Translations under genes and position numbers: made by a program
Notes under the pieces: generated by a model
Told to the model about the DNA's origin: nothing
Seen by the model: only the letters and a program-made list of their open reading frames with translations
Database searches by the model: none
Assembly (NCBI GenBank): GCA_018897155.1
Contig: JAHILE010000053.1
Location: 1-18,814 of the forward strand
Direction: 5' to 3'
Length of the DNA: 18,814 bases
From: Nanoarchaeota archaeon
GTDB taxonomy: Archaea; EX4484-52; LFW-46
Shown here: positions 111-18,793 of the stretch, piece after piece
Layout: each line of letters opens with the position of its first letter
Numbering within the stretch: the first letter of the stretch is position 1

Positions 111-188
111 ATAATGACTGAACGGCCGGTCCTCCCAAAGAAATAGGCTAAAAAGTAGCGTTCGCGTTGGTATAGGTTATATTTGAAC

Positions 189-2786: not shown

Positions 2787-5700
2787 TTAAGCACCTTTTG
2801 CAACAACGATAGCAACAATAATCATAAGCACTAAGTAAACGAAATTAACCGAACTATCGCTTGCAACCGCGGGAGCGTTCGGGCTGATTAAAACAAGCAG
2901 CACCAGCACCAAAAGAAAGATGAAAAGAAATACAAATAACATAATAAGAGAATCCATTGAATCTTTTGGCTTGCCATATTTGACAACTACGATTAATGCA
3001 ACAAGAAAGGCTACTGCAAGTATCGGAACATATATTTGATGCCCACCTATTGTCTTGGGCGCAACCCATCCAAACGCCGGAGCTTTGCCGCTTTTGAAGA
3101 CGTAACTAAGAGCCTCAGTGATGTTATCAGAAAAAACAAACTCCTTTCGCGAAACTTCAACAGGCATTTCGTATGTTGTTCTTCCATCCGATATTGTGAA
3201 TGTGGTATTGGCAATCTCGCTTTTGTTAAGGATTGGGTCTGCAACAAGGCGAATATAGCTAATTCCGCTATCTATTCCGCCTTTTCCTTTAAAAATGGTT
3301 GTAAAATTCTGCATTTTAGAGCCGCCCATGTCGAATTTTAGCCACTTCACATTTGATGTAAATGTCATAACCAAATCATCATCAGCAGTGTTTCTTATTC
3401 TGAACTCGTATGTGTAAGCTGAGCTAAAATAACCGCTTAAGACTATTTTTCTTAATTCGGTATCTGTTTGCGATTCAAAAAGAACGAACTTTGCGGCACA
3501 GTCAACAGGGCATGTTTCGTTGTTCTCATTGATTTCGCATATTTTGTTGCCGCACATGGTTTGTGGGTTTGAACTACCTCCACCACCGCTTGCAGGTGGC
3601 GTAACTGGTATCGCGGTAGCTGTGTAATTCTGAGTTCCGTTCATCGAGCCTAAGTTGGATGAGCCATCAGAAGCGAAGAAACGGAACGAGTAATTGCCTT
3701 CGGTTGCAGGCGTATAAGATTTTACAAAGTAGCTCTCTGAGCCTGATTTATTCCCTGATAAGGTCATAGTGTAATTCGTTGCCGTCGCGTCGGGCTCTGT
3801 GATTTCAACAGAAACAAGCTGTACGCTGTTTAATTCTGTGACGTTTATCCCAACTGTGAAAGCGGTTGTTATCTGTCCAGTTGTTGCAGATATTGTTTGA
3901 TTGTGAACGTCAGGCGCAGTTGTATCCCCGATAGTAATTTCTGAAGAATTAGCCCACGTCGAGTTGTCCGTGCCGTCATTTGCTTTTACGCCGCATATGA
4001 CGTTATCGCCTAACGTGAGGTTGCCAGCGCTTAAATTTTGCGTTGTTGTTTCGTTAAGTATGCCGTTGATGTACCATTGAAACCTTTGCCCCGTTTCTAC
4101 ATCTTTATCAACGTCGTAATAAGTATATGTGCAATTCAAATTGTCAGTAATTTGAGCTGGCGATGGGGAGATTGCGGCGGTTACGACTGGCGCGGTGTTG
4201 TTCACAATAAAGCTTTGGATTGTTGTTTGATTCATATTTCCGTAAGTGTCATTCGCGTAAAAAAGATATGACACAGAATTAGTTTTGTTTGCTATATTTT
4301 GCACCGAAACATTCGACCAATTGCCTGAAAAATCATAAGTTGTGTTCACCCAAGTTCCGCTCATGTTGGTGCTGAAAATATACTGCGAAAGTCCGCTAAA
4401 TAAATCATTCCAAAGTGCGCTTATGCTTATTGTGTCGTTCTTTCTGATTTCTGAAGAATTGATAGAAAAATTTGAATAAGACGGCGCAATAGTGTCTATT
4501 GTAAAAGCAACGCTTGTTGAGTTGCTCGCTCCCAAAGAATTATTAACAAAAAATAAGACTGTATGCGCCCCTTGTGTCATTGTTGTATTTTTATAATTCC
4601 AGTTTCCGCTTGAGTTCGTCATTGAAACGTTTGCCGCGCCGTCTAAAGAAAACAACGCCGTTTCTACAATTTGGTTTAAAGTGATGTTAAACCAAGTTGT
4701 AGAAACGGCGTATGAAGCGTTTGCAGGAGATTGAATCGTTAGAGGCAAGTCTGGCGTTGTGTCGTTAAAATATGTTGAACCCGCAAAAAAAATTGCTGTT
4801 GAATTATATATCGTGCTAAACCATATTTTTATTCGTCCTCCCGAGCCAGAAGCGGAGCCAGAACCGCCTGATAAATTTAATTTGGCGGACAGATTTAAAA
4901 CATCGACATCGAGAAGAATTGTTCCGCCTGCCGCGCCGCCTCCGCTCCCGCCTGAGCCTCCTAAAGTTTCTGCGCCATAAACTCCGCCAGTTCCGCCTGC
5001 TCCGCCGCTTCCGCCTTTTGCGTTTATTTGCCCTTGCAGATTTGCTAACGGCGCTTTAAGGAATATTGCGCCTCCGCCGCGTCCTCCCGCGGTTCCGCTC
5101 GTTCCCCAATAATTATTTCCCGAGTCGGGCGCTACGTTTCCGCCTGAGCCGCCTGCTCCGCCGCCGCTTCCCAAAAAATATGTGTAGCCAAACGATGTTC
5201 CGTATTCGCTGCCGCCTGCTCCTCCTGCGCCTCCGTTGCTGTTGAAGCTTGTGCTTGTTCCTGCAGTGCCTGCGCTTCCGCTTCCTGCCGCGTTTGCGTG
5301 ACCTGCCGCGCCGCCTCCGCCGCCTCCGCCAAAAGCGCAAAGGTAATTCCCGCAAAAAACGGATGAGCTTCCGTTTGCGCCGCCGCTTGTTCCAGCGCCG
5401 CCGCCTCCGAAATTGCTTGCATAAACATTTACTGATGTTCCTCCCGAATATCCTTTTTCGTTTGCGTTAATAATAGAGGTTGCGTCTATCGTTATGTTGA
5501 TAGTTGCAGTTATATTTATGTATCCTGTTCCCGCGGTTGCGTTTAATGCCGCCACGTTGATTATCGCTCCGTTTTTCAGCTCCACATAGTCGTAAGTATA
5601 ATTTCCGAACATTTCTACTGATGTTCCGACAATAGTTAATTCAGGATCGATAAAAATCGGGAATCGGGCTGTTTCAAGCCACGTCTTATTGATTTTAAGC

Positions 5701-7895
5701 GTTATTTTCTTGTCCGAATACGCCAATTTTTTAAGCGGATATTCTGTTCCGTTGCTGTCCCAAATGATAAGGTCTTTGACTTTAAATGAGCCGAACGTTA
5801 ATGTTTCGTTATCGATTGTTCCGTTGCCGATATACTCGAAATTTTCTGTAAACTCCGCGTCTTTTGTCTTAAATTTCGGGTCGTAAAGCATAATCATTTT
5901 TGTTATTCCCTCTTTGCTGATAGCGTATTCTACTGTTATATTGTCTTTGTCGCTGCGATATGTTATTTTGTTGCCAGAAATTTTGGGAATGGTGTCGGGC
6001 GTTATCGAAATAGAAAATATCGCAAGCTCATCGCTGTAATTGATAGCGATATGCGTTTGATTTGCTTTTACTTTGAAAATGTTGTCTTCAATTTCAAACA
6101 GCGTATTCTGCTTTGCAGATTCTTTAAAAGAAAGGTTATACTGCTTTTGCATCCACGCTCCGTTTTCTTTCTCGTTAAAAACAGAGCCGTCTAAAATTAA
6201 TTTTGATTGCCCCTGCCCGTTTACATAAACAGTTTCTAAAGCGGATGTTCTATTGCTGTCTATAACCCACGTTTCAGCATGCGAAAGCGAACAGAAAGAC
6301 GGAAGCAGAATAAAGGCTAAAAGCATAGCAAGCACCGCTCTTTTGCGCGGCTTGAACAAGATGCACGTGGTTATCGCGCTATATATTAAAAGCACTGCAA
6401 ACAGCGCATAATATCGCCATGGTATGATATTTGTGAATTTATCAACATAAACCGTCTGGTTTCTCTCCTGAATTTCGATAACGGGCGCGGATGTTATGTT
6501 CCTGATTTCAATAACATTGTTTATAGTGTAATTGCACATGCTTTTGTTCGCGGTCTGATTTGTTGTTGCGTTAGCGTAGACGTAAGATATGCCGCCTCCC
6601 CAGCTGCCGCTGTTGCTTGAAGAAGATGAAGAAGAACTGCTTTGCTCTTCAGACGATGGCGCGGGAGCGGCAATTGCGCCAAAATCGTCTTTGTCGCTGA
6701 GCGTGTAAGTAGAGAGATGCGTCAGAACCGCAAAAACATAACCTTCTTTTTCATTTACGCTCGAAGGTATGTTCTCCCACGCAAGCGATGTTTCATTGTA
6801 GTATTTAATAGAAAGTTTGGAAGGCAGTATCCCTAAAAGAGTTACAAGAGTTTTATTGTAATAAATTCTAACTTCTACAGTATTGTTCTCATTCACGACC
6901 AAAGAAGACGTTAACTCAAAATATACGGTTATGTTATTGAGCAATAAAAGAGGCGGGAGCTGATACGCGCTTACATCTATTTTAACTCCATTTGATTCTA
7001 AAATAGGCGCAGAGTTGTCTTCAAAACTATTGTTATAAGACGCGTAAGTATAAAGAATATCGCTAATTTCATTATATGTAATGCAGTTATTGTTCGAATT
7101 GAATAAATCTAAGCGTCCTGCTACTTTATTATTCTTTATCCTGTTTTTATTGCTTTCTGCTAAAGACATGCCCGAATTCATTTTTATTCCGTTTTTTTCG
7201 CGCGCTTTTACAGTATTGTTTTCAAAATAATTGTCTTCTGCGCCGCTTCTGATATAAAAAGAAGTTATAGAGTTTGTGACAGTGTTGTTCTTTGCGCCGA
7301 TTAGTGAAATGCCTTTTAAAGTGGAATTATCGAAGGGCGTAAAGACATTATCTATATAGTTATTTTCAGACACTATATAAACGCCGTTGCATGTTTCTTT
7401 GGTAATGATATTGAATATATTTGCGCTATTGCCTTGCAGATAAAGAACAGCATCTGCAAAATAGCCGCGCGAGCTTTGTAGTGTAAGATTAGAAAGAGAG
7501 ACATTATCTGCATAAATTGAAACGACATCGCCGCGAAGCGTAATATTCAGCGTCAAATTAGAAATATTGTAGCCGTTAAAATCGTCTACATCGCTCTGAA
7601 TTATTAAAACACTGCATCCGCTCCAATAATCGTGAATAGGCGATAGTGTTTCATAGATAGAGTAATCCCCATCTATGATAACGCCCGTTGAACTTTCTCC
7701 GATTAGGGATATTGATTTGTTAATATTAAGACGCTCATAATATGTTCCGTTTGAAATAAAAATAATGTCTCCGCTTGTTGAATTGTCAATCGCTGCTTGA
7801 ATTGTTGTGTAATCAGACGCGTTTAAAGTCGCGGCTTGCGCGCAAGCGCAATTAACGAAAAGCAAAGCGAACATCACGCAGAAAAACAGTTTCAT
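2787..7895 (-). CDS. Giant NosD-like/Ig-repeat cell-surface protein, apparent two-protein fusion (1702 aa)
   Basis: The ATG at 7895 follows GGAGGCGCAATA. Residues 1-21 form a signal peptide. Residues 27-300 form a NosD/pectate-lyase-like parallel beta-helix (TTIQAAID...GTYYERLNINKSISLIG, then NN-rich turns). About 315-400 is a beta domain, followed by a nine-serine linker. A helix near 492-514 is then followed by KPRKRAVLAMLLAFILLPSF and CSLSHA, which reads as a second signal peptide. Downstream come a beta domain (540-800), a Gly-rich region (about 815-1020), about four Ig-like domains (1040-1440), and a Cys motif CGNKICEINENNETCPVDC near 1447-1466. Three C-terminal hydrophobic segments lie near 1618-1638, 1647-1668 and 1682-1702. 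N-x-S/T sites are abundant, suiting an N-glycosylated exported protein. It is probably a surface adhesin or receptor-binding protein. It is co-operonic with the genes at 7895-8071 and 2637-2774. Confidence 0.75.
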   Translation of the reverse strand: MKLFFCVMFALLFVNCACAQAATLNASDYTTIQAAIDNSTSGDIIFISNGTYYERLNINKSISLIGESSTGVIIDGDYSIYETLSPIHDYWSGCSVLIIQSDVDDFNGYNISNLTLNITLRGDVVSIYADNVSLSNLTLQSSRGYFADAVLYLQGNSANIFNIITKETCNGVYIVSENNYIDNVFTPFDNSTLKGISLIGAKNNTVTNSITSFYIRSGAEDNYFENNTVKAREKNGIKMNSGMSLAESNKNRIKNNKVAGRLDLFNSNNNCITYNEISDILYTYASYNNSFEDNSAPILESNGVKIDVSAYQLPPLLLLNNITVYFELTSSLVVNENNTVEVRIYYNKTLVTLLGILPSKLSIKYYNETSLAWENIPSSVNEKEGYVFAVLTHLSTYTLSDKDDFGAIAAPAPSSEEQSSSSSSSSSNSGSWGGGISYVYANATTNQTANKSMCNYTINNVIEIRNITSAPVIEIQERNQTVYVDKFTNIIPWRYYALFAVLLIYSAITTCILFKPRKRAVLAMLLAFILLPSFCSLSHAETWVIDSNRTSALETVYVNGQGQSKLILDGSVFNEKENGAWMQKQYNLSFKESAKQNTLFEIEDNIFKVKANQTHIAINYSDELAIFSISITPDTIPKISGNKITYRSDKDNITVEYAISKEGITKMIMLYDPKFKTKDAEFTENFEYIGNGTIDNETLTFGSFKVKDLIIWDSNGTEYPLKKLAYSDKKITLKINKTWLETARFPIFIDPELTIVGTSVEMFGNYTYDYVELKNGAIINVAALNATAGTGYINITATINITIDATSIINANEKGYSGGTSVNVYASNFGGGGAGTSGGANGSSSVFCGNYLCAFGGGGGGGAAGHANAAGSGSAGTAGTSTSFNSNGGAGGAGGSEYGTSFGYTYFLGSGGGAGGSGGNVAPDSGNNYWGTSGTAGGRGGGAIFLKAPLANLQGQINAKGGSGGAGGTGGVYGAETLGGSGGSGGGAAGGTILLDVDVLNLSAKLNLSGGSGSASGSGGRIKIWFSTIYNSTAIFFAGSTYFNDTTPDLPLTIQSPANASYAVSTTWFNITLNQIVETALFSLDGAANVSMTNSSGNWNYKNTTMTQGAHTVLFFVNNSLGASNSTSVAFTIDTIAPSYSNFSINSSEIRKNDTISISALWNDLFSGLSQYIFSTNMSGTWVNTTYDFSGNWSNVSVQNIANKTNSVSYLFYANDTYGNMNQTTIQSFIVNNTAPVVTAAISPSPAQITDNLNCTYTYYDVDKDVETGQRFQWYINGILNETTTQNLSAGNLTLGDNVICGVKANDGTDNSTWANSSEITIGDTTAPDVHNQTISATTGQITTAFTVGINVTELNSVQLVSVEITEPDATATNYTMTLSGNKSGSESYFVKSYTPATEGNYSFRFFASDGSSNLGSMNGTQNYTATAIPVTPPASGGGGSSNPQTMCGNKICEINENNETCPVDCAAKFVLFESQTDTELRKIVLSGYFSSAYTYEFRIRNTADDDLVMTFTSNVKWLKFDMGGSKMQNFTTIFKGKGGIDSGISYIRLVADPILNKSEIANTTFTISDGRTTYEMPVEVSRKEFVFSDNITEALSYVFKSGKAPAFGWVAPKTIGGHQIYVPILAVAFLVALIVVVKYGKPKDSMDSLIMLFVFLFIFLLVLVLLVLISPNAPAVASDSSVNFVYLVLMIIVAIVVAKGA
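4655..4711. repeat. 25-bp-armed inverted repeat inside the surface-protein gene
   Basis: Arms 4655-4679 and 4687-4711 are reverse complements except for one position (C/T, a G-U pair in one strand's RNA), with the seven-base loop AGTGATG. It lies at the junction between the Gly-rich region and the first Ig-like domain, where the arms encode AVSTTWFN and NQIVETA. Confidence 0.85.
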
Positions 7896-10200: not shown

Positions 10201-10593
10201 TTACTTTGAGGCGGCGAACCAAAACTTTCTTTCAATGTAAACGGTTTCGTTCTTGAAGCCGACTTTTTTCGTGCGCTTAAGCCTGATGACTTTTGGCTGA
10301 ATCAGCCCAAGAGCCTCAAGGTCTGAAACGCACTTTTTGATTGATTGCGTTCCGACTTTTAGCTTTACTCTTAAGTGGTGTTCAGGGCATGGAGTATCTC
10401 TAATCATTGCTAAAATTGCTTCTTGAATCTCCTGCGAAGTGCGCTTATTGCGCAGTCCCTGATAGCCCTTTCTGTGGTACATAAGCGTGATTTGATTATT
10501 TCGCGGCAAAACATCCGCGCAATCTACATTATTTGTGATTTGTCCTAACGATTGTCGCATCAATATTGGCGTAGGAAAAGAATCGTTAGGCAT
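10201..10593 (-). CDS. Winged-helix DNA-binding protein (130 aa)
   Basis: The open frame extends to 10635, but a TATAAAA box (10624-10618) sits about 28 bases before the ATG at 10593. A leaderless start there (MPNDSFPTPILMRQSLGQI) is therefore preferred; the 10635 ATG has no ribosome site. The C-terminal two-thirds is a winged helix: RTSQEIQEAILAMIRDTPCP (helix 1), HHLRVKLKVGTQSIKKCVSD (helices 2-3) and LEALGLIQPKVIRLKRTKKV (wing). The family is typical of archaeal transcription regulators and replication initiators. It is the first gene leftward of the iteron/palindrome block, so it is a good candidate for the protein that binds those repeats. That is inference from position. Confidence 0.7.
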   Translation of the reverse strand: MPNDSFPTPILMRQSLGQITNNVDCADVLPRNNQITLMYHRKGYQGLRNKRTSQEIQEAILAMIRDTPCPEHHLRVKLKVGTQSIKKCVSDLEALGLIQPKVIRLKRTKKVGFKNETVYIERKFWFAASK

Positions 10594-10617
10594 AAAGGTA
10601 GATAATGCGAGAATCCC

Positions 10618-10624
10618 TTTTATA
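10618..10624 (-). promoter_or_regulatory. TATA box for the winged-helix gene
   Basis: On the minus strand the sequence reads CATATAAAAGGG. Its centre is about 28 bases from the ATG at 10593, the spacing expected for a leaderless archaeal transcript. Confidence 0.55.
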
Positions 10625-10655
10625 TGACACCCCATTAAGAGGTTAAAAGAAAATG

Positions 10656-10897
10656 TTGTTATAATTATCGTTATTATAACAAGAACGGCACAGTATCAAC
10701 CTTTGACAATGTTGTCAAAGCCTATAACTGTAACGATTTTATGAAGAAATAGTAGTAAATCCGAAATCGGATTTAGCGGTTAAAAACCCATAAACGTAAC
10801 GCTTTTTTAGCTTTTTATGCAAAATAATAAATTTATTATTTGTAGTATTAAACCCATTATCGTAACGTTTTTTGATTTTAAACCTTTATTTGTAACA
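10656..10897. other. Candidate replication origin or structured control region: four iterons and several palindromes
   Basis: The gap 10636-10902 has no gene. Iterons with consensus AACCYATAANY-GTAACG-NTTTTT have GTAACG (or GTAACA in the last) at 10730, 10796, 10862 and 10892, so the spacings are 66, 66 and 30. Palindromes occupy 10701-10720 (9-base arms, TG centre), 10756-10775 (TAAATCCGA-AA-TCGGATTTA) and 10822-10841 (AAATAATAAATTTATTATTT, perfect). A fourth inverted repeat has arms at 10656-10665 and 10673-10682. The second and third palindromes are each centred 35.5 bases after an iteron core. The block lies beside the primase/ATPase module and is AT-rich, as known plasmid origins are. 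Confidence 0.65.
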
Positions 10898-10902
10898 TTT
10901 TT

Positions 10903-11355
10903 TTAGATTAAACGTGAATCACAGATAGCCCAATTCGGATTCATATCAATATCTTCAACATTTTTTAGTCTCTTACTACATTCCACTTCATATTTTTCAT
11001 ATCTTTTTTTTTCACTGAGTTTTTTGCGATAGTATTTTTGTCGACAAGCATTTGAACAAAACGTCGTATCATTTCTTTTTGATTTAAAATCTTTATAACA
11101 AGAATAACAACGAACATCTCTATTTTTTTCGCGTTGCATTGCTCTTTTAATTATAAAAACATCATTTCTACAACGATAACTACAATACTTCGCGGTTGAA
11201 TTTTTTGTGTAAAAAAAAGAATTACAGTTAACACATAATAATTTAAGTATGTTCGATTGACACTCACAGAATATATCTGAGTCATAATCATTTTTTAGTG
11301 TTTTTTGTTTTTCAATACCTACTAAATCAATACACTTAAAATATTCGCGTTTCAT
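10903..11355 (-). CDS. Double zinc-finger protein (150 aa)
   Basis: The ATG at 11355 overlaps the previous stop (ATGA). Two similar Cys clusters are visible. One is near residues 41-62: CVNC followed by KYCSYRC, i.e. C-x2-C-x14-C-x3-C. The other is near 78-100: CYSC followed by FCSNACRQKYYRKK. Each is a treble-clef or zinc-ribbon-like finger of the type found in small phage and archaeal proteins ('..C..C...F......FCS..CR..'). CECQ and LLC just upstream add further Cys. The C-terminal part is basic and helical. It is probably nucleic-acid-binding and is the last gene of the replication operon, directly before the iteron block. Codon usage looks more AT-rich than in the surface gene. No precise family is claimed. 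Confidence 0.7.
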   Translation of the reverse strand: MKREYFKCIDLVGIEKQKTLKNDYDSDIFCECQSNILKLLCVNCNSFFYTKNSTAKYCSYRCRNDVFIIKRAMQREKNRDVRCYSCYKDFKSKRNDTTFCSNACRQKYYRKKLSEKKRYEKYEVECSKRLKNVEDIDMNPNWAICDSRLI

Positions 11356-11618
11356 AGTAGTACCTCTTTAACAAAATCGGATTTAATCACCCACTGACCC
11401 ACAAATATTATTTTTTTCTTTTCATAAAGAAAAATCGCATCATCACTTTCTGGCGCGGAAAGAATTATTTTTTGCTCTTTATTTAGTTCTAATAATATAT
11501 TATCTAATTCTTGTGCTGTTATGTTTGGTATTGTCTTTATGAATTTAAACCAAAGTGTAGTGTAAGAAGTTATATTAAAATCACGTATCGTATTCCAAAC
11601 TAAAGTTTTTTTATCCAT
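11352..11618 (-). CDS. Small winged-helix-like protein (88 aa)
   Basis: I chose the ATG at 11618, which lies inside the end of the ATPase gene and follows GAGGTGTCGCTA. The frame is open ten codons further upstream, but nothing supports a start there. The product (MDKKTLVWNTIRDFNITSYT...) has a helix at 20-33, an 'ITAQELDNILLELNKEQKII' helix-turn-helix-strand segment near 33-52, and a two-strand wing (IFLYEKKKIIFVGQWVI). The pattern suits a winged helix. It carries one copy of the dispersed 11-mer (11556-11566), encoding SYTTL. It is co-translated with the ATPase and the zinc-finger gene. The function is not recognised; it may be a replication accessory. Confidence 0.6.
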   Translation of the reverse strand: MDKKTLVWNTIRDFNITSYTTLWFKFIKTIPNITAQELDNILLELNKEQKIILSAPESDDAIFLYEKKKIIFVGQWVIKSDFVKEVLL

Positions 11619-13878
11619 TAGCGACACCTCGCAAACTTTCAACCAATTCCGTCATATCACGAATATTATAATTATTCTGTTCGCGTTCTGGTATCGAAGA
11701 AAGAATATCAACTGCGATTTTATAATCTGTTTGCGCACCATCAAAACTTAAGCGGTCTAAAATCTGCGCTTTGATTTGTTCTGAAATGGCAGGTTTGGCA
11801 GGTTTGGCAGGTATTTCACTACTCCTATTAGTAATAATATTATTTACATTTTCCGTTAGGGTTGGACTTTGACTGCCAACACTGCCAACACTGCCAACTT
11901 TTCCAACAAAAGTATCATCAAAAACATTTTTTTGTGTTTTTTCTTCTTCATTCTTACAAAAAAGAAATTTTTGGCGACTACCTCGTTGTTCAACATTGTC
12001 AATTAAAAGCAAAATGTCTGATAAACGGCGACGAACAAATTTAAGTAATTTTTTTCCAAATTTACTTTTACCTGATAGCTCCTTAAAATCAAAATTTTCA
12101 AACAATTCATTTTTTATGACAATATCTATTATTTCATCTTTAGTGAGCCAACCTTTATTTTTTTCATTTTTTTTGGCAAAGCATAATTCAAAAAGTTTTT
12201 TCATATCTGCCGTTTCACTATCACCAGCAATTTTTAATGTTTCTGTTGAAGATTTGCAAGGACTATCATATCCCGCAGCTTCCATAATACCGCCGCAGAT
12301 TTCAGCCCATTCAGGGAATGATGCAAACGGAACGCTACCAGCTTTACTATCGTTTTCAATCCAATTTCTGATTAAAGCATAAAGCGCAGATAGAATCAGT
12401 CCTCTTTTTTCCGCAACCCAACCGTGTAAGTTCGGATTTGAAAATTTACGCGCGTTTGCGTCCTCCATTTCTAAGAAAAGATTGATAAAACGGCATCTAT
12501 TAGCTAAGTCTGGTGTAAAACCAATACCTACATTACCCGATAATGAATATTCCATCTCGTTATCATATTCAACATTCTCGTTTTTTCCAAGAAGTCTATC
12601 ACATATTTTTTTAGCTGTGATTTGCATTTCAAAAACAGCATTATTGATATATCCCTTATTGTTTGCGAAATGCAACCGCTTACGATTGCTTAAAGCAGCC
12701 GATGTCATTTTTTTACGGAATTCCTCATTATTATTCGTTTTTGCGTTATCACTTGTAGATATAGGCGGCTCTTCAAGCGCAAAACCTTCATAAACAATAC
12801 CCGTTATACCTGCCAAATAGTCTTTTCCGGCGCGTTCTCTATTCGCAATATAGAAAAATACGGGTGTTCTTGTGTTAAAATCAGAATATAAACCGCGTAA
12901 AAACGGCGTTAATAATGCACTAATAGCATTTATTTTATCTTGGTCAGTTTCAAAACAAAACTCTTGTAGTGTAAGTTTAATAATTTCTTTAGCTTCGTCA
13001 AGCGTCATATCCGGATTTTCAATAATTGGCGCATCAAGCGGCATCCAAGAATTAAAGCGCGCGTCATAACCACTTTTAGGGAATGTTAGTTTTTCTTTGT
13101 AAATGATAGGCATTTGAACAGTGAAAATTCGGTTTATAATTGGTAATCCTGACTGCATTATTTCAGAACATAATAATGTATTCGCCAAATCCGAATTCAT
13201 ACTTTTCTCTTTTTCTTCAAAATTACCATTTTTTAGTTTAACATACGTAAAGGGAACAAAATATTTTTCAGCCAAAGTGATAAATCTACTTGGTCGTAAA
13301 TTTACAAATCCTGTAAAACTTTCTTCAGAGTCTTTATTTAATTTTATTTTTCTAATTTCAACAATTTCGCGTATGTCTGACTTGAAAAATAATATATTTT
13401 TAAATTTCAAAACTCCAATAACATCATTAGCAAAGTCACTTATCAGTCTACCATTTCGTGGTAATTCAATCAGTTGTTTACATTCGGATTGCGTTTTTTT
13501 TCCTTCAACGAACCATTCAGGCTCAAGAAGCTTTACAATGTCAATATAATGGTCGTTTTCACCAGATTTATGATGGTCTTTAAAACCACCTACACCAGTT
13601 TCCATATTTTCTATAAGATTTACAGAACCCGTAGTATGTTCGGGACAAAGTGGATTGAATTTTAAAGCAATAATCCGTATCTTTTTTTCAGTATCAATTT
13701 TATCTTTTGTGACGTCTTCATGCACTCTTTGAAGCTTGTCAGGATGCCACGCAATCAATTCAGTTGGTGTTGGGAGATTATCTTTACTTCTTTGGGGTTT
13801 TGACACGACTGGAGCTTGCGCCGTTGGTGGCGCAAACTTATTCATCATTTCTTCGGTTAAAATTTCACAATCACTCAT
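11611..13878 (-). CDS. D5/SF3-like replicative ATPase-helicase (755 aa)
   Basis: The start at 13878 follows GGTGATTCTAA and overlaps the primase stop (ATGA). Residues 75-110 look like a degenerate CHC-type zinc element (CPEH...GGFKDHH). Residues about 335-475 form the ATPase core. Its Walker A-like motif is IANRERAGKDYLA (345-356). The Walker B position reads RLHFANN (401-407) where family members usually have an acidic residue. A sensor-like SGNVGIGF (447-454) and an arginine-finger-like DLANRCRF (457-464) follow. The C-terminus (560-645) resembles a winged helix, then comes a VGS/PAK repeat linker (659-696) and a last helical domain. Helicases of this class work with the adjacent primase in plasmid and viral replication. 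The altered Walker B may mean a different catalytic residue or weakened ATPase activity. Confidence 0.8.
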   Translation of the reverse strand: MSDCEILTEEMMNKFAPPTAQAPVVSKPQRSKDNLPTPTELIAWHPDKLQRVHEDVTKDKIDTEKKIRIIALKFNPLCPEHTTGSVNLIENMETGVGGFKDHHKSGENDHYIDIVKLLEPEWFVEGKKTQSECKQLIELPRNGRLISDFANDVIGVLKFKNILFFKSDIREIVEIRKIKLNKDSEESFTGFVNLRPSRFITLAEKYFVPFTYVKLKNGNFEEKEKSMNSDLANTLLCSEIMQSGLPIINRIFTVQMPIIYKEKLTFPKSGYDARFNSWMPLDAPIIENPDMTLDEAKEIIKLTLQEFCFETDQDKINAISALLTPFLRGLYSDFNTRTPVFFYIANRERAGKDYLAGITGIVYEGFALEEPPISTSDNAKTNNNEEFRKKMTSAALSNRKRLHFANNKGYINNAVFEMQITAKKICDRLLGKNENVEYDNEMEYSLSGNVGIGFTPDLANRCRFINLFLEMEDANARKFSNPNLHGWVAEKRGLILSALYALIRNWIENDSKAGSVPFASFPEWAEICGGIMEAAGYDSPCKSSTETLKIAGDSETADMKKLFELCFAKKNEKNKGWLTKDEIIDIVIKNELFENFDFKELSGKSKFGKKLLKFVRRRLSDILLLIDNVEQRGSRQKFLFCKNEEEKTQKNVFDDTFVGKVGSVGSVGSQSPTLTENVNNIITNRSSEIPAKPAKPAISEQIKAQILDRLSFDGAQTDYKIAVDILSSIPEREQNNYNIRDMTELVESLRGVANG
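11787..11896. repeat. Two 9-base triplet repeats in inverted orientation
   Basis: TGGCAG occurs at 11787, 11796 and 11805 (unit GGCAGGTTT). Its reverse complement CTGCCA occurs at 11873, 11882 and 11891 (unit CTGCCAACA). They encode the PAKPAKPA and VGSVGSVGS linker of the ATPase. Nine-base units keep the frame, so copy number can vary without breaking the gene. Confidence 0.75.
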
Positions 13879-14561
13879 TTAGAATCACCCTTTAATGCTT
13901 CAGGAACGCTCAGAATCTTAGAAATCCTGTGCGGTCTTGCAGGGATTGAATCGCCCTTGCACGCCCACGTTCCGTAAAGCTTCCATATTCGGTTTGCATC
14001 GGCGAACATATCCAGTTTTAGCCCTTTAGTGTTATCGAATTTGTCTTTTATTATTTTCTGGATTCCCGCGATTTTCGTTTCGGCTTGCGGCGTGTTCGGC
14101 ATATTAATTCTAATCAGGACATGCGCGCCGTTTCCGCTATCTGCAACGATACCTTCAGGCATTCCCATTGCTTTCAAACCATCGCGTATTTCGTATGCTT
14201 TCTTAATCGCAAGCTCGTGTTCTTCGTTGCTGCTTGAAATACCAGTCGGGCGGTCTGCGTCTATGTCAATCGGTATCCACCTTCTTTTCAGGATATGCTC
14301 TTTTGAGGTCGTTAGCTTAGCTCCTGTCTGAACGCGATTATATGCACGCGCAAGAAGTGCAGGTATGCAAGGGTTAAGTGTGACATAAACGCCTTCAGCT
14401 ATTTTTTCATATTTTGCCGCGCATTTCGCAAGCTTGTCGAAGTCATCAAAAAAACCCGAATCGATTTTGCCATATCCTCCTTTAGTTATTACGCGAAGTT
14501 CAACAACATCGCCAGCCTCAAACAAAACGTCTAATACTTTTCGTATTTCTTTTTCTGTCAT
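13875..14561 (-). CDS. Archaeo-eukaryotic primase/PrimPol-type protein (228 aa)
   Basis: This is an AEP-superfamily primase, synthesising RNA or DNA primers for element replication. I chose the ATG at 14561 because GGTGATTCT precedes it exactly. An upstream run of Mets in frame (to 14633) overlaps the acidic mini gene and has no better site. Motif I is WIPIDIDADRP (D99, D101, metal ligands). Motif II is DSGNGAHVLI (S142, H147). Motif III is LDMFADANRIWKLYGT (D188, R191, K194). The N-terminal 60 residues carry an EIRKVLDVLFEAGDVVELR module, often seen before plasmid/phage AEP cores. The size is that of a stand-alone core. The stop overlaps the ATPase start (ATGA), giving the classic primase-helicase pair of archaeal plasmids and viruses. 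Confidence 0.85.
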   Translation of the reverse strand: MTEKEIRKVLDVLFEAGDVVELRVITKGGYGKIDSGFFDDFDKLAKCAAKYEKIAEGVYVTLNPCIPALLARAYNRVQTGAKLTTSKEHILKRRWIPIDIDADRPTGISSSNEEHELAIKKAYEIRDGLKAMGMPEGIVADSGNGAHVLIRINMPNTPQAETKIAGIQKIIKDKFDNTKGLKLDMFADANRIWKLYGTWACKGDSIPARPHRISKILSVPEALKGDSK

Positions 14562-14595
14562 AGAATCACCATAAAAATCATAACGCGGCGCTGTA

Positions 14596-14751
14596 TTAAT
14601 TATCATCATTCTCTCTAAATTCGGCATCATCATCGCTGCGTTCTTCCCATTCTATAAATGTGGTTCCGTCTTCGTTTTCATATACATCAAAATCAGCGCA
14701 TTTCGCGCCAGCATCCGTCTTTATTGCAATAACTTCATTTTTTCTATCCAT
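14596..14751 (-). CDS. Acidic mini protein (51 aa)
   Basis: The ATG at 14751 follows GGTGAATTTT. The product begins basic (MDRKNEVIAIKTDAGAKCAD) and becomes strongly acidic (FIEWEERSDDDAEFRENDDN). The first half may form two strands (VIAIKT, FDVYENEDGTTFIEWEE), the second a disordered acidic tail. Small acidic proteins in mobile elements can mimic DNA or regulate the next protein; no family is recognised. It sits 13 bases after the 14765 gene and 34 bases before the chosen primase start. Confidence 0.55.
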   Translation of the reverse strand: MDRKNEVIAIKTDAGAKCADFDVYENEDGTTFIEWEERSDDDAEFRENDDN

Positions 14752-17119: not shown

Positions 17120-17323
17120 TTACTCACTTGTTAAGATAATCATTCCAAAAATAACTACAATCAAAGAAATCGTTGATAGGTTTTCATTCTTACCCAAGGA
17201 GGATGTATAAGCTACAGCACCCCCACACAAACAAAACAGTCCCCATTGCTTCTTAGTTAAGCCCAAAAATGTAGGTGGCATACATAATTCTTTGTCCGTT
17301 TTCGTATATATACGTTCTTTCAT
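17120..17323 (-). CDS. Two-helix membrane protein (67 aa)
   Basis: The ATG at 17323 overlaps the integrase stop (ATGA) and follows GGTGGTGAAGGC, a strong ribosome site. After a basic, polar N-terminus (MKERIYTKTDKELCMPPTFL) come two hydrophobic segments (WGLFCLCGGAVAYTSSLG and STISLIVVIFGMIILTSE) joined by a short GKNEN turn. It ends right after the second segment. Tight coupling to the integrase, and to the next membrane gene, suggests the three are made together. Such pairs may anchor, exclude or signal, but the function is not recognised. Confidence 0.6.
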   Translation of the reverse strand: MKERIYTKTDKELCMPPTFLGLTKKQWGLFCLCGGAVAYTSSLGKNENLSTISLIVVIFGMIILTSE

Positions 17324-18597
17324 GCCTTCACCACCATCTCCTTCCTCAATTCCCGCAGCAATTCCGCCTTCAATTCCGCGATTTCAGCGTTGAAAACCGC
17401 CTTTTCTTCGGCGTTAAACGCGTTAAAGCTGAATTTGCCGCTTGCTTCGTTTATCGTTTTGATTGTCGGGTCTGCAATCATTCCGCATTTTTCGCACATT
17501 AACTGATGCGGCGATAAATCCGTTCCGCATTTGCATTTCTTAGCAACAAATACGCTTTTCTTACGTTCTTGTACAGGCATTTCTACACCTGCTGCATCGC
17601 AATATGCGCTTTCTGTGTCGGAGTCGTCCATGTGAAGATATGTAGATTCAAGAACATTGCTTCCTTTCGCATGCCGAAGAACCATTTTAATTTTTGAAGT
17701 TTGCATACCTTTTTCAATTAAGTCCTCTGCTCTTGAATGCCTAAGCCTGTAAAGTGGAATTGCTCGACCCAGAACCTTCTTGCTTAATCCATGTATCATC
17801 TTGCGCCATGTCGAATCACGCCAATACTTAGGCTTTCCGTCTTTCAGAAGGTAAAATAACGGACTATTTGGGCTTCTAAAAGCATGGTTATTGAGCCAGC
17901 TTGTCAATAATGGCGCGGATGTTATGCAGTAGATATACCCCTGCCCTGTCTTTCCATCAACTTCTATCTTATAGCCTCTTTCGGTTCGGGTTATATCTTT
18001 AATATCCACCCCCCGAAGTTCTGATGGTCTTGCCGCGCTTTCAAACAGAATAGAAATAATTGTTTTGTATTGTAGTGTAGACGCAGAAGCCACAAGTTGA
18101 TTAACCTGTTCTTCGGTCACTAAGTCCTCCTTTCGCAGCTTGTTTTTGACATTCTTTTTGACCAGATGGCACGCTCTTGGGCTTTGCCCTTTGCATGTCA
18201 CGCCATCCAAGAACTTAAACAACATCTTCAAAACGCCGGTAAAGTCATTTAATGAGTTCTCTTTGTATCGTTTCGGCTGTATGTCTTTCCCAATGTTAAT
18301 TTCTTTATTAATTTCAGCCTGATTGATAACCCTCTGCCTTAACAGCGTCATAACAGCATCGCAGTCGTCTTTTGTAAAGTCTTCAAAATCCTTGCCGTAT
18401 GTTTCGGCGAGAATCTTGCAGTTGATTATGTACTTTCTGACGCGCATTATAGAAAGCCCTTTAGCTATCAGGTATTGCTCCAGCCTTACAATCACAGCCT
18501 TGTTTCTTTCGCTGATATTCGCGTTCTTCAAGCCGTTTTCGGCGCGCTTCAAATGCCTCGACACTTCAAATAACTCTTCTTTTTTCTGTTCATCCAT
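17320..18597 (-). CDS. Tyrosine recombinase/integrase with a zinc ribbon (425 aa), R..YxxR..Y type
   Basis: I chose the ATG at 18597: GTGATT precedes it, and TATAAAA lies about 25 bases upstream. A GTG at 18633 in frame is less likely. Residues 30-155 form the core-binding domain and 160-325 the catalytic domain. R190 is in SAARPSELRG, K216 in DGKTGQG, Y283 and R286 in PLYRLRHSRA, H309 in LRHAKGSN, and nucleophile Y320 in ESTYLHMD. The usual HxxR is YxxR, as described for pNOB8-type archaeal integrases. Residues 355-371 form a zinc ribbon (CKCG...CEKCG), followed by a C-terminal coiled coil (EAEL-type, 397-420). It heads an operon with two membrane genes. It is probably the enzyme that inserts the element; the left recombinase may serve dimer resolution or excision. 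Confidence 0.88.
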   Translation of the reverse strand: MDEQKKEELFEVSRHLKRAENGLKNANISERNKAVIVRLEQYLIAKGLSIMRVRKYIINCKILAETYGKDFEDFTKDDCDAVMTLLRQRVINQAEINKEINIGKDIQPKRYKENSLNDFTGVLKMLFKFLDGVTCKGQSPRACHLVKKNVKNKLRKEDLVTEEQVNQLVASASTLQYKTIISILFESAARPSELRGVDIKDITRTERGYKIEVDGKTGQGYIYCITSAPLLTSWLNNHAFRSPNSPLFYLLKDGKPKYWRDSTWRKMIHGLSKKVLGRAIPLYRLRHSRAEDLIEKGMQTSKIKMVLRHAKGSNVLESTYLHMDDSDTESAYCDAAGVEMPVQERKKSVFVAKKCKCGTDLSPHQLMCEKCGMIADPTIKTINEASGKFSFNAFNAEEKAVFNAEIAELKAELLRELRKEMVVKA

Positions 18598-18611
18598 AGC
18601 AATCACATCGC

Positions 18612-18628
18612 ATATATCCCTTTTATAC
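18612..18628. promoter_or_regulatory. Shared bidirectional TATA region
   Basis: On the minus strand GGTATAAAAGGG precedes the integrase ATG by about 25 bases. On the plus strand the same bases read CTTTTATACC, about 25 bases before the ATG at 18650. Both genes would thus give near-leaderless transcripts from one core. Confidence 0.5.
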
Positions 18629-18649
18629 CACACCTATGCGAACGCTACT

Positions 18650-18793
18650 ATGCAGTCTATTTCCCAAAGAGGCCGGCTCTTCGCCCTCCCAATACGGCGG
18701 TTTACTGCAATCTCTGTCTTGTTATCGGTTTTTATCGGCTTGATAACCTATGAAATAATTAATCTCTTCTTTGTAGATGGATGCGTAGTGTGA
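18650..18793 (+). CDS. Single-pass membrane mini protein (47 aa)
   Basis: The ATG at 18650 lies about 25 bases after a TATA-like TTTATA, fitting leaderless translation; no ribosome site is needed or seen. The product has a basic N-terminus (MQSISQRGRLFALPIRRFTA) and one hydrophobic helix (ISVLLSVFIGLITYEIINLFFV), ending DGCVV. N-in/C-out topology is predicted. It is divergent from the integrase. The longer open frame continuing leftward is a shadow of the integrase. A hairpin follows or overlaps its last codons. No family is recognised. Confidence 0.45.
   Translation: MQSISQRGRLFALPIRRFTAISVLLSVFIGLITYEIINLFFVDGCVV

Follow-up and report, generated by a model that had tools for sequence, protein, structure and literature searches.

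In the mini-F plasmid, oriS contains four iterons, and dimers of RepE bind inverted repeats situated between the promoter and repE itself (PMC13028717). A second point of reference is provided by the PrimPol-PV1 supergroup and its relatives, which are integrative elements that carry an AEP primase and a P-loop helicase (PMC5862659). The locus described here lies in a stretch of 18,814 nucleotides (hereafter the window), contig C53 in an archaeal draft genome of 1.43 Mb. Its closest functional parallel is the oriS/repE region of mini-F, as four direct iterons lie in AT-rich DNA upstream of a gene for a putative DNA-binding protein, and inverted copies of the iteron core occur at the promoter and start of that gene (PMC13028717). 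With the PrimPol-PV1 elements the window shares a putative primase that adjoins a P-loop ATPase and winged-helix proteins, all within an integrated element that also has a tyrosine recombinase (PMC5862659). There are clear departures from both. Unlike mini-F, the locus belongs to an archaeal host, its element is equipped with its own primase and helicase, palindromes stand between the iterons, and the putative DNA-binding protein is a 130-residue product that has one winged-helix domain at most and shows no recognisable homology to Rep proteins; and in contrast to the PrimPol-PV1 elements, primase and helicase are encoded by separate genes. To our knowledge, DnaA boxes are not to be expected in archaea. 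The AT-rich region, the repeated sites and the adjoining replication genes also recall archaeal origins of the Orc1/Cdc6 type, however the element has no gene that we could recognise as Orc1/Cdc6, and the iteron is not recognisable as an ORB element (origin recognition box). The layout as a whole, in an AT-rich region of 360 bases, resembles that known from bacterial iteron plasmids.

The window is in essence a single integrated element, complete and about 18.5 kb long, with an integrase at one end and att direct repeats at both:

133-141, plus strand: attL core TCCCAAAGA, direct repeat, left end of the element
18662-18670, plus strand: attR core TCCCAAAGA, direct repeat, right end of the element
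17320-18633, minus strand: tyrosine recombinase (integrase) at the right end, Phage_integrase match with E 4e-14

Joining the ends yields a nearly symmetric attP with nested inverted GCGAACGCTACT / AGTAGCGTTCGC and CTATTT / AAATAG arms. At either end the contig shares its outermost 141 bases, without a mismatch, with the ends of two other contigs, C56 and C28; the left contig break coincides with the end of the att core, and the right break falls 12 bases past the core start. The coexistence of unoccupied att sites in the population is only suggested by these breaks, as it fits the left one and leaves the right one unexplained. We regard the host as an archaeon because another contig of the same genome, C32, bears ribosomal protein and RNA polymerase genes of archaeal type; it may belong to a DPANN lineage, for instance Iainarchaeota. 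Elsewhere in the window, a direct duplication of 222 bases (922-1143 and 1182-1403, 77% identity) covers two small ORFs that have a helix-turn-helix-like stretch in common, and a surface-protein-like gene (2787-7895, 1702 aa), parts of which resemble further proteins encoded by the host genome (36-42% similarity), contains a 57-base inverted repeat at 4655-4711 that is 88% complementary.

On the right-hand side of the array lies a series of genes that includes the predicted replication functions:

10903-11355, minus strand: small cysteine-rich protein adjoining the array, weak matches to phage families of unknown function
11352-11642, minus strand: 96-aa protein, helix-helix-helix-hairpin in a low-confidence model
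11611-13878, minus strand: P-loop helicase-like replication protein, matches to phage families (E 1e-31 and 1e-10) and to DNA polymerase/primase (3e-8)
13875-14633, minus strand: putative primase, probably of AEP type, 93% identical to that of a sibling element in the same genome

The primase and helicase genes share one gene run. The helicase-like protein matched plasmids and phages in tblastn searches, and the putative primase gave one weak PHROG match. Fold searches with small proteins were set aside where the structure models (two of them) were too poor. The GC content is 34% in the helicase body and 28% in the array, and 43% in the primase and winged-helix genes. Cumulative GC skew, which the first-pass annotation had put forward as a check on an origin at this site, gave no clean origin signal, and the placement of nearly all genes on one strand is a confounder of the measure.

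The same annotation had reported GTAACG cores at 10730, 10796 and 10862 and GTAACA at 10892, and all four are present. They belong to iterons with the consensus CCNATNANNGTAACGNTTTT, which occurs exactly at 10721, 10787 and 10853:

10721-10740, plus strand: iteron 1, CCTATAACTGTAACGATTTT, exact match to the consensus
10787-10806, plus strand: iteron 2, CCCATAAACGTAACGCTTTT, exact match to the consensus
10853-10872, plus strand: iteron 3, CCCATTATCGTAACGTTTTT, exact match to the consensus
10883-10902, plus strand: iteron 4 (degenerate), CCTTTATTTGTAACATTTTT, three mismatches to the consensus

The 66-base phase that had been claimed for the array is true of three of the four iterons and breaks down at the last, which follows iteron 3 after 30 bases. 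Even where it holds, this phase differs from that of the mini-F iterons, which is about 20 bases. The array is nonetheless of the kind seen in iteron-type origins, with at least three direct repeats of about 20 bases in one AT-rich region, and it is by this layout that it might be placed among them. Six matches to CCNATNANNGTAACGNTTTT with at most three mismatches were counted in the window, a number reached in none of 200 shuffles; the three exact matches and one match with three mismatches all fall within 10721-10902, and the rest of the window scores nowhere near. No further exact copy of the iteron was found in about 980 kb of the same genome. Three 20-mers that are pairwise at least 75% identical at such a spacing occur at seven places, the array being one, in the 999 kb that were scanned (about 980 kb of the host genome, or some 69% of it, and 20 kb of a congener). 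Plasmid centromeres, too, are direct-repeat arrays adjoining a small DNA-binding gene, and the iterons could on this model be coated by the small DNA-binding protein for the purpose of segregation. We consider such a partition role very unlikely, as a ParA, ParM or TubZ-like partner was not recognised among the window proteins searched, a set that took in only some of the small ORFs.

The gene to the left of the array encodes the candidate iteron-binding protein, and the iteron core recurs at its start:

10201-10593, minus strand: putative DNA-binding protein of the winged-helix type and candidate binder of the iterons, start codon ATG at 10593 or 10560, ORF opening at 10635
10617-10624, minus strand: TATAAAAG, candidate archaeal TATA box, centred some 27 bases ahead of ATG 10593 of the winged-helix gene
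10581-10590, minus strand: candidate operator arm 1, CCTAACGATT, equal to the iteron core, directly after ATG 10593
10544-10553, plus strand: candidate operator arm 2, CCTAACGATT, inverted with respect to arm 1 and separated from it by 27 bases

Matches of the protein to GntR and Sta1 are weak (E 0.09 and 0.08), its structure model is of low confidence (pLDDT 40), and no match to a Rep family stood above the cut-off in family searches. Its only homologue is in the sibling element (C32:12749-12982; 36% over 50 aa), a winged-helix match in another genome (25%) having been rejected as what looks like an unrelated chromosomal regulator. The candidate TATA box would be suitably placed for a leaderless start at ATG 10593, or for a short leader before ATG 10560. 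The inverted 10-base pair, which is absent from the first-pass annotation, covers the first codons of the gene just past this box. Occurrence of TAACGHTT on both strands at the gene start arose in 7 of 20000 shuffles (~0.0004) and, when the first 20 codons were resampled synonymously, in 48 of 50000 trials (~0.001), both tests being made post hoc, and the window has just one other locus of inverted 10-mers with a similar loop. Taken in its shorter form, TAACGHT, the core is present in six copies within 382 bases (10530-10911), and none of 5000 shuffles had more than four; two of the six, the inverted pair, lie outside the interval first annotated, and another sits at the centre of the first palindrome described below (TAACGAT on the minus strand, 10673-10667).

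An array that precedes a TATA box and the start of a gene is also what would be expected if the region served transcriptional control only, with the iterons and the inverted pair as operators of the winged-helix protein and the palindromes as operators of other dimeric regulators. The winged-helix gene and later genes would then be controlled, in the manner of a lysogeny-type or excision switch. This is the main rival to the reading of the region as an origin, and we judge it possible but on balance improbable. The sibling element, which retains repeated sites at the gene start in the absence of an iteron array, speaks for it, as does the resemblance of perfect 20-base palindromes with unrelated sequences to the sites of different dimeric regulators. 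The iterons, however, lie some 97-278 bases upstream of the TATA box, which is far for an archaeal repressor site, and the 979 kb of host genome that were searched hold no further copy of any of the palindromes.

Four palindromes are interspersed with the iterons or lie near them, and all are exact where the first-pass annotation had located them, including the two inverted repeats that it listed separately (10656-10682 and 10701-10720):

10656-10682, no strand: palindrome P1, arms of 10 bases and a loop of 7
10701-10720, no strand: palindrome P2, CTTTGACAATGTTGTCAAAG, 9/2/9, abutting iteron 1
10756-10775, no strand: palindrome P3, TAAATCCGAAATCGGATTTA, 9/2/9, 11 bases before iteron 2
10822-10841, no strand: palindrome P4, AAATAATAAATTTATTATTT, 10/0/10, 11 bases before iteron 3

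P2 is weakly extended by outer ACAGT / ACTGT arms. The array and palindromes are well above chance. The four, with arms of 9-10 bases, span 186 bases, and the array region holds four of the ten palindromes in the whole window that have an arm of at least 8 and a loop of at most 9; at least four palindromes with an arm of at least 9 were obtained in 2 of 5000 dinucleotide shuffles of 10636-10902, and 100 shuffles of the whole window gave a maximum of two palindromes per 190-base stretch. It could be argued that the iterons are functional and the palindromes mostly a by-product of the AT-rich intergenic DNA of this genome, given that seven further clusters, of three or four palindromes each, are found in 306 kb of it, and given that the spacers of two units are without homology. 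We find this unlikely in view of the shuffles just cited, and a number of the clusters on the chromosome belong to another, terminator-like type (TTTTCAG...CTGAAAA). As terminators the array palindromes themselves were rejected, with a single weak terminator-like site on the minus strand of P3. Among the palindromic sequences seen elsewhere in the genome are an intergenic cluster of ATCGATTAATCGATTA repeats in contig C6 (G000:C6, L056:12408-12524) and four different palindromes within 183 intergenic bases of C32 (G000:C32:18841-19023, L008:5801-5983), two of which share TTTTCAG...CTGAAAA, a type with a terminator-like appearance that is met again in further stretches of intergenic DNA.

It had further been proposed that the palindromes occupy the same offset in each unit and that their fold is kept while their sequence changes. 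The shared offset is real for P3 and P4, and, roughly estimated, chance alone would give two 20-mers a common offset about 1 time in 27, but it does not extend to P2, which lies 11 bases closer to its iteron. Conservation of the fold is not supported by the spacers: the 44 bases between iterons are identical at 15 of 44 positions in units 1 and 2 (13.7 +/- 2.8 by chance), and since there is no homology beyond chance the two units offer no common hairpin ancestor in which compensating changes could have arisen. P2, moreover, breaks the phase. Searches of viral contigs and of 34 genomes of the phylum brought up no other locus that carries the array, and thus no homologues in which covariation could be judged. 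That the palindromes are kept for shape rather than sequence, as a cruciform or hairpin recognised or extruded at initiation, is in our estimation highly improbable; if it were true, origin firing would read the iteron by its sequence and, besides, a fold irrespective of sequence. Similarly doubtful, and to the same degree, is a structured RNA (a leader, antisense or other non-coding RNA) in which the palindromes form the hairpins. In its favour, each of the two strands gives a better fold than its shuffled versions (z -3.6 and -5.6). However, strong folding on either strand is to be expected because exact DNA palindromes produce such scores by themselves; the hairpins are AT-rich and differ in sequence, and an Rfam search of the region returned no family match.

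Comparison with related elements is largely confined to the sibling, which is integrated in the same genome at about 6.8-14 kb of C32 (G000:C32, L007, L008). The first-pass annotation had looked to related elements for conservation of the array, and this is not what the sibling displays: despite the 93% identical primase and a winged-helix gene of its own, it has no iteron array. It does contain an 11-mer, AAACGCCAAAC, in direct orientation at 12718-12728 and 12767-12777, that is, at distances of 31 bases upstream and 18 bases downstream of the winged-helix ATG, and about 30 bases after a TATA-like ATAAATAA. In both elements a repeated site, of different sequence in each, thus flanks the winged-helix start, a pattern consistent with autoregulation by proteins that differ in specificity. 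The sibling helicase gene has only its first 120 codons in common with that of the window, DNA similarity ending at 13523, and this difference points to a domain-level exchange between two elements of one genome. Exchange of the helicase together with the array region would fit their common low GC content and the end of similarity inside the helicase gene; counter to a joint exchange, the winged-helix gene (43% GC) does not have the AT-rich composition. Within the same phylum, the helicase and primase were found only in the window and the sibling. Viral contigs contained neither relatives of the helicase, primase, winged-helix and cysteine-rich proteins nor the iteron as an exact DNA pattern, and the array DNA gave only short AT-rich chance matches across 34 genomes of the phylum. 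A distant primase relative from Chloroflexi (42%) was discarded as a comparison, being a primase-helicase fusion without iterons.

We therefore return to the region 10544-10902 as an iteron-type origin and copy-control locus with an autoregulated winged-helix protein, a reading based on sequence to which we give somewhat under an even chance. An origin or incompatibility locus was among the possibilities first raised, and it remains the likeliest reading in view of the nearby primase and helicase, the AT-rich DNA and the inverted cores; the lack of a match to a known Rep family and of an array in the sibling weigh against it. In such a scheme the winged-helix protein (10201-10593) would bind the TAACG core. 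On the direct iterons (10721-10902) and the AT-rich DNA, it may allow the helicase and primase to be loaded upon excision of the element, with replication starting at the array, and on the inverted pair over its own promoter and start, it would repress its own synthesis. The interspersed palindromes might act as extra dimer sites or as aids to strand opening.

We know of no experimentally mapped replication origin in the elements of such DPANN-like archaea. If the above reading is right, the region would offer an origin that is compact, open to testing and accompanied by a candidate initiator, and a layout of iterons and an autoregulated DNA-binding gene, as in bacterial plasmids, would also serve an archaeal element that encodes a primase and a helicase of its own. 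The exchange of helicase between the two elements would, furthermore, suggest that origin and helicase move as a unit.
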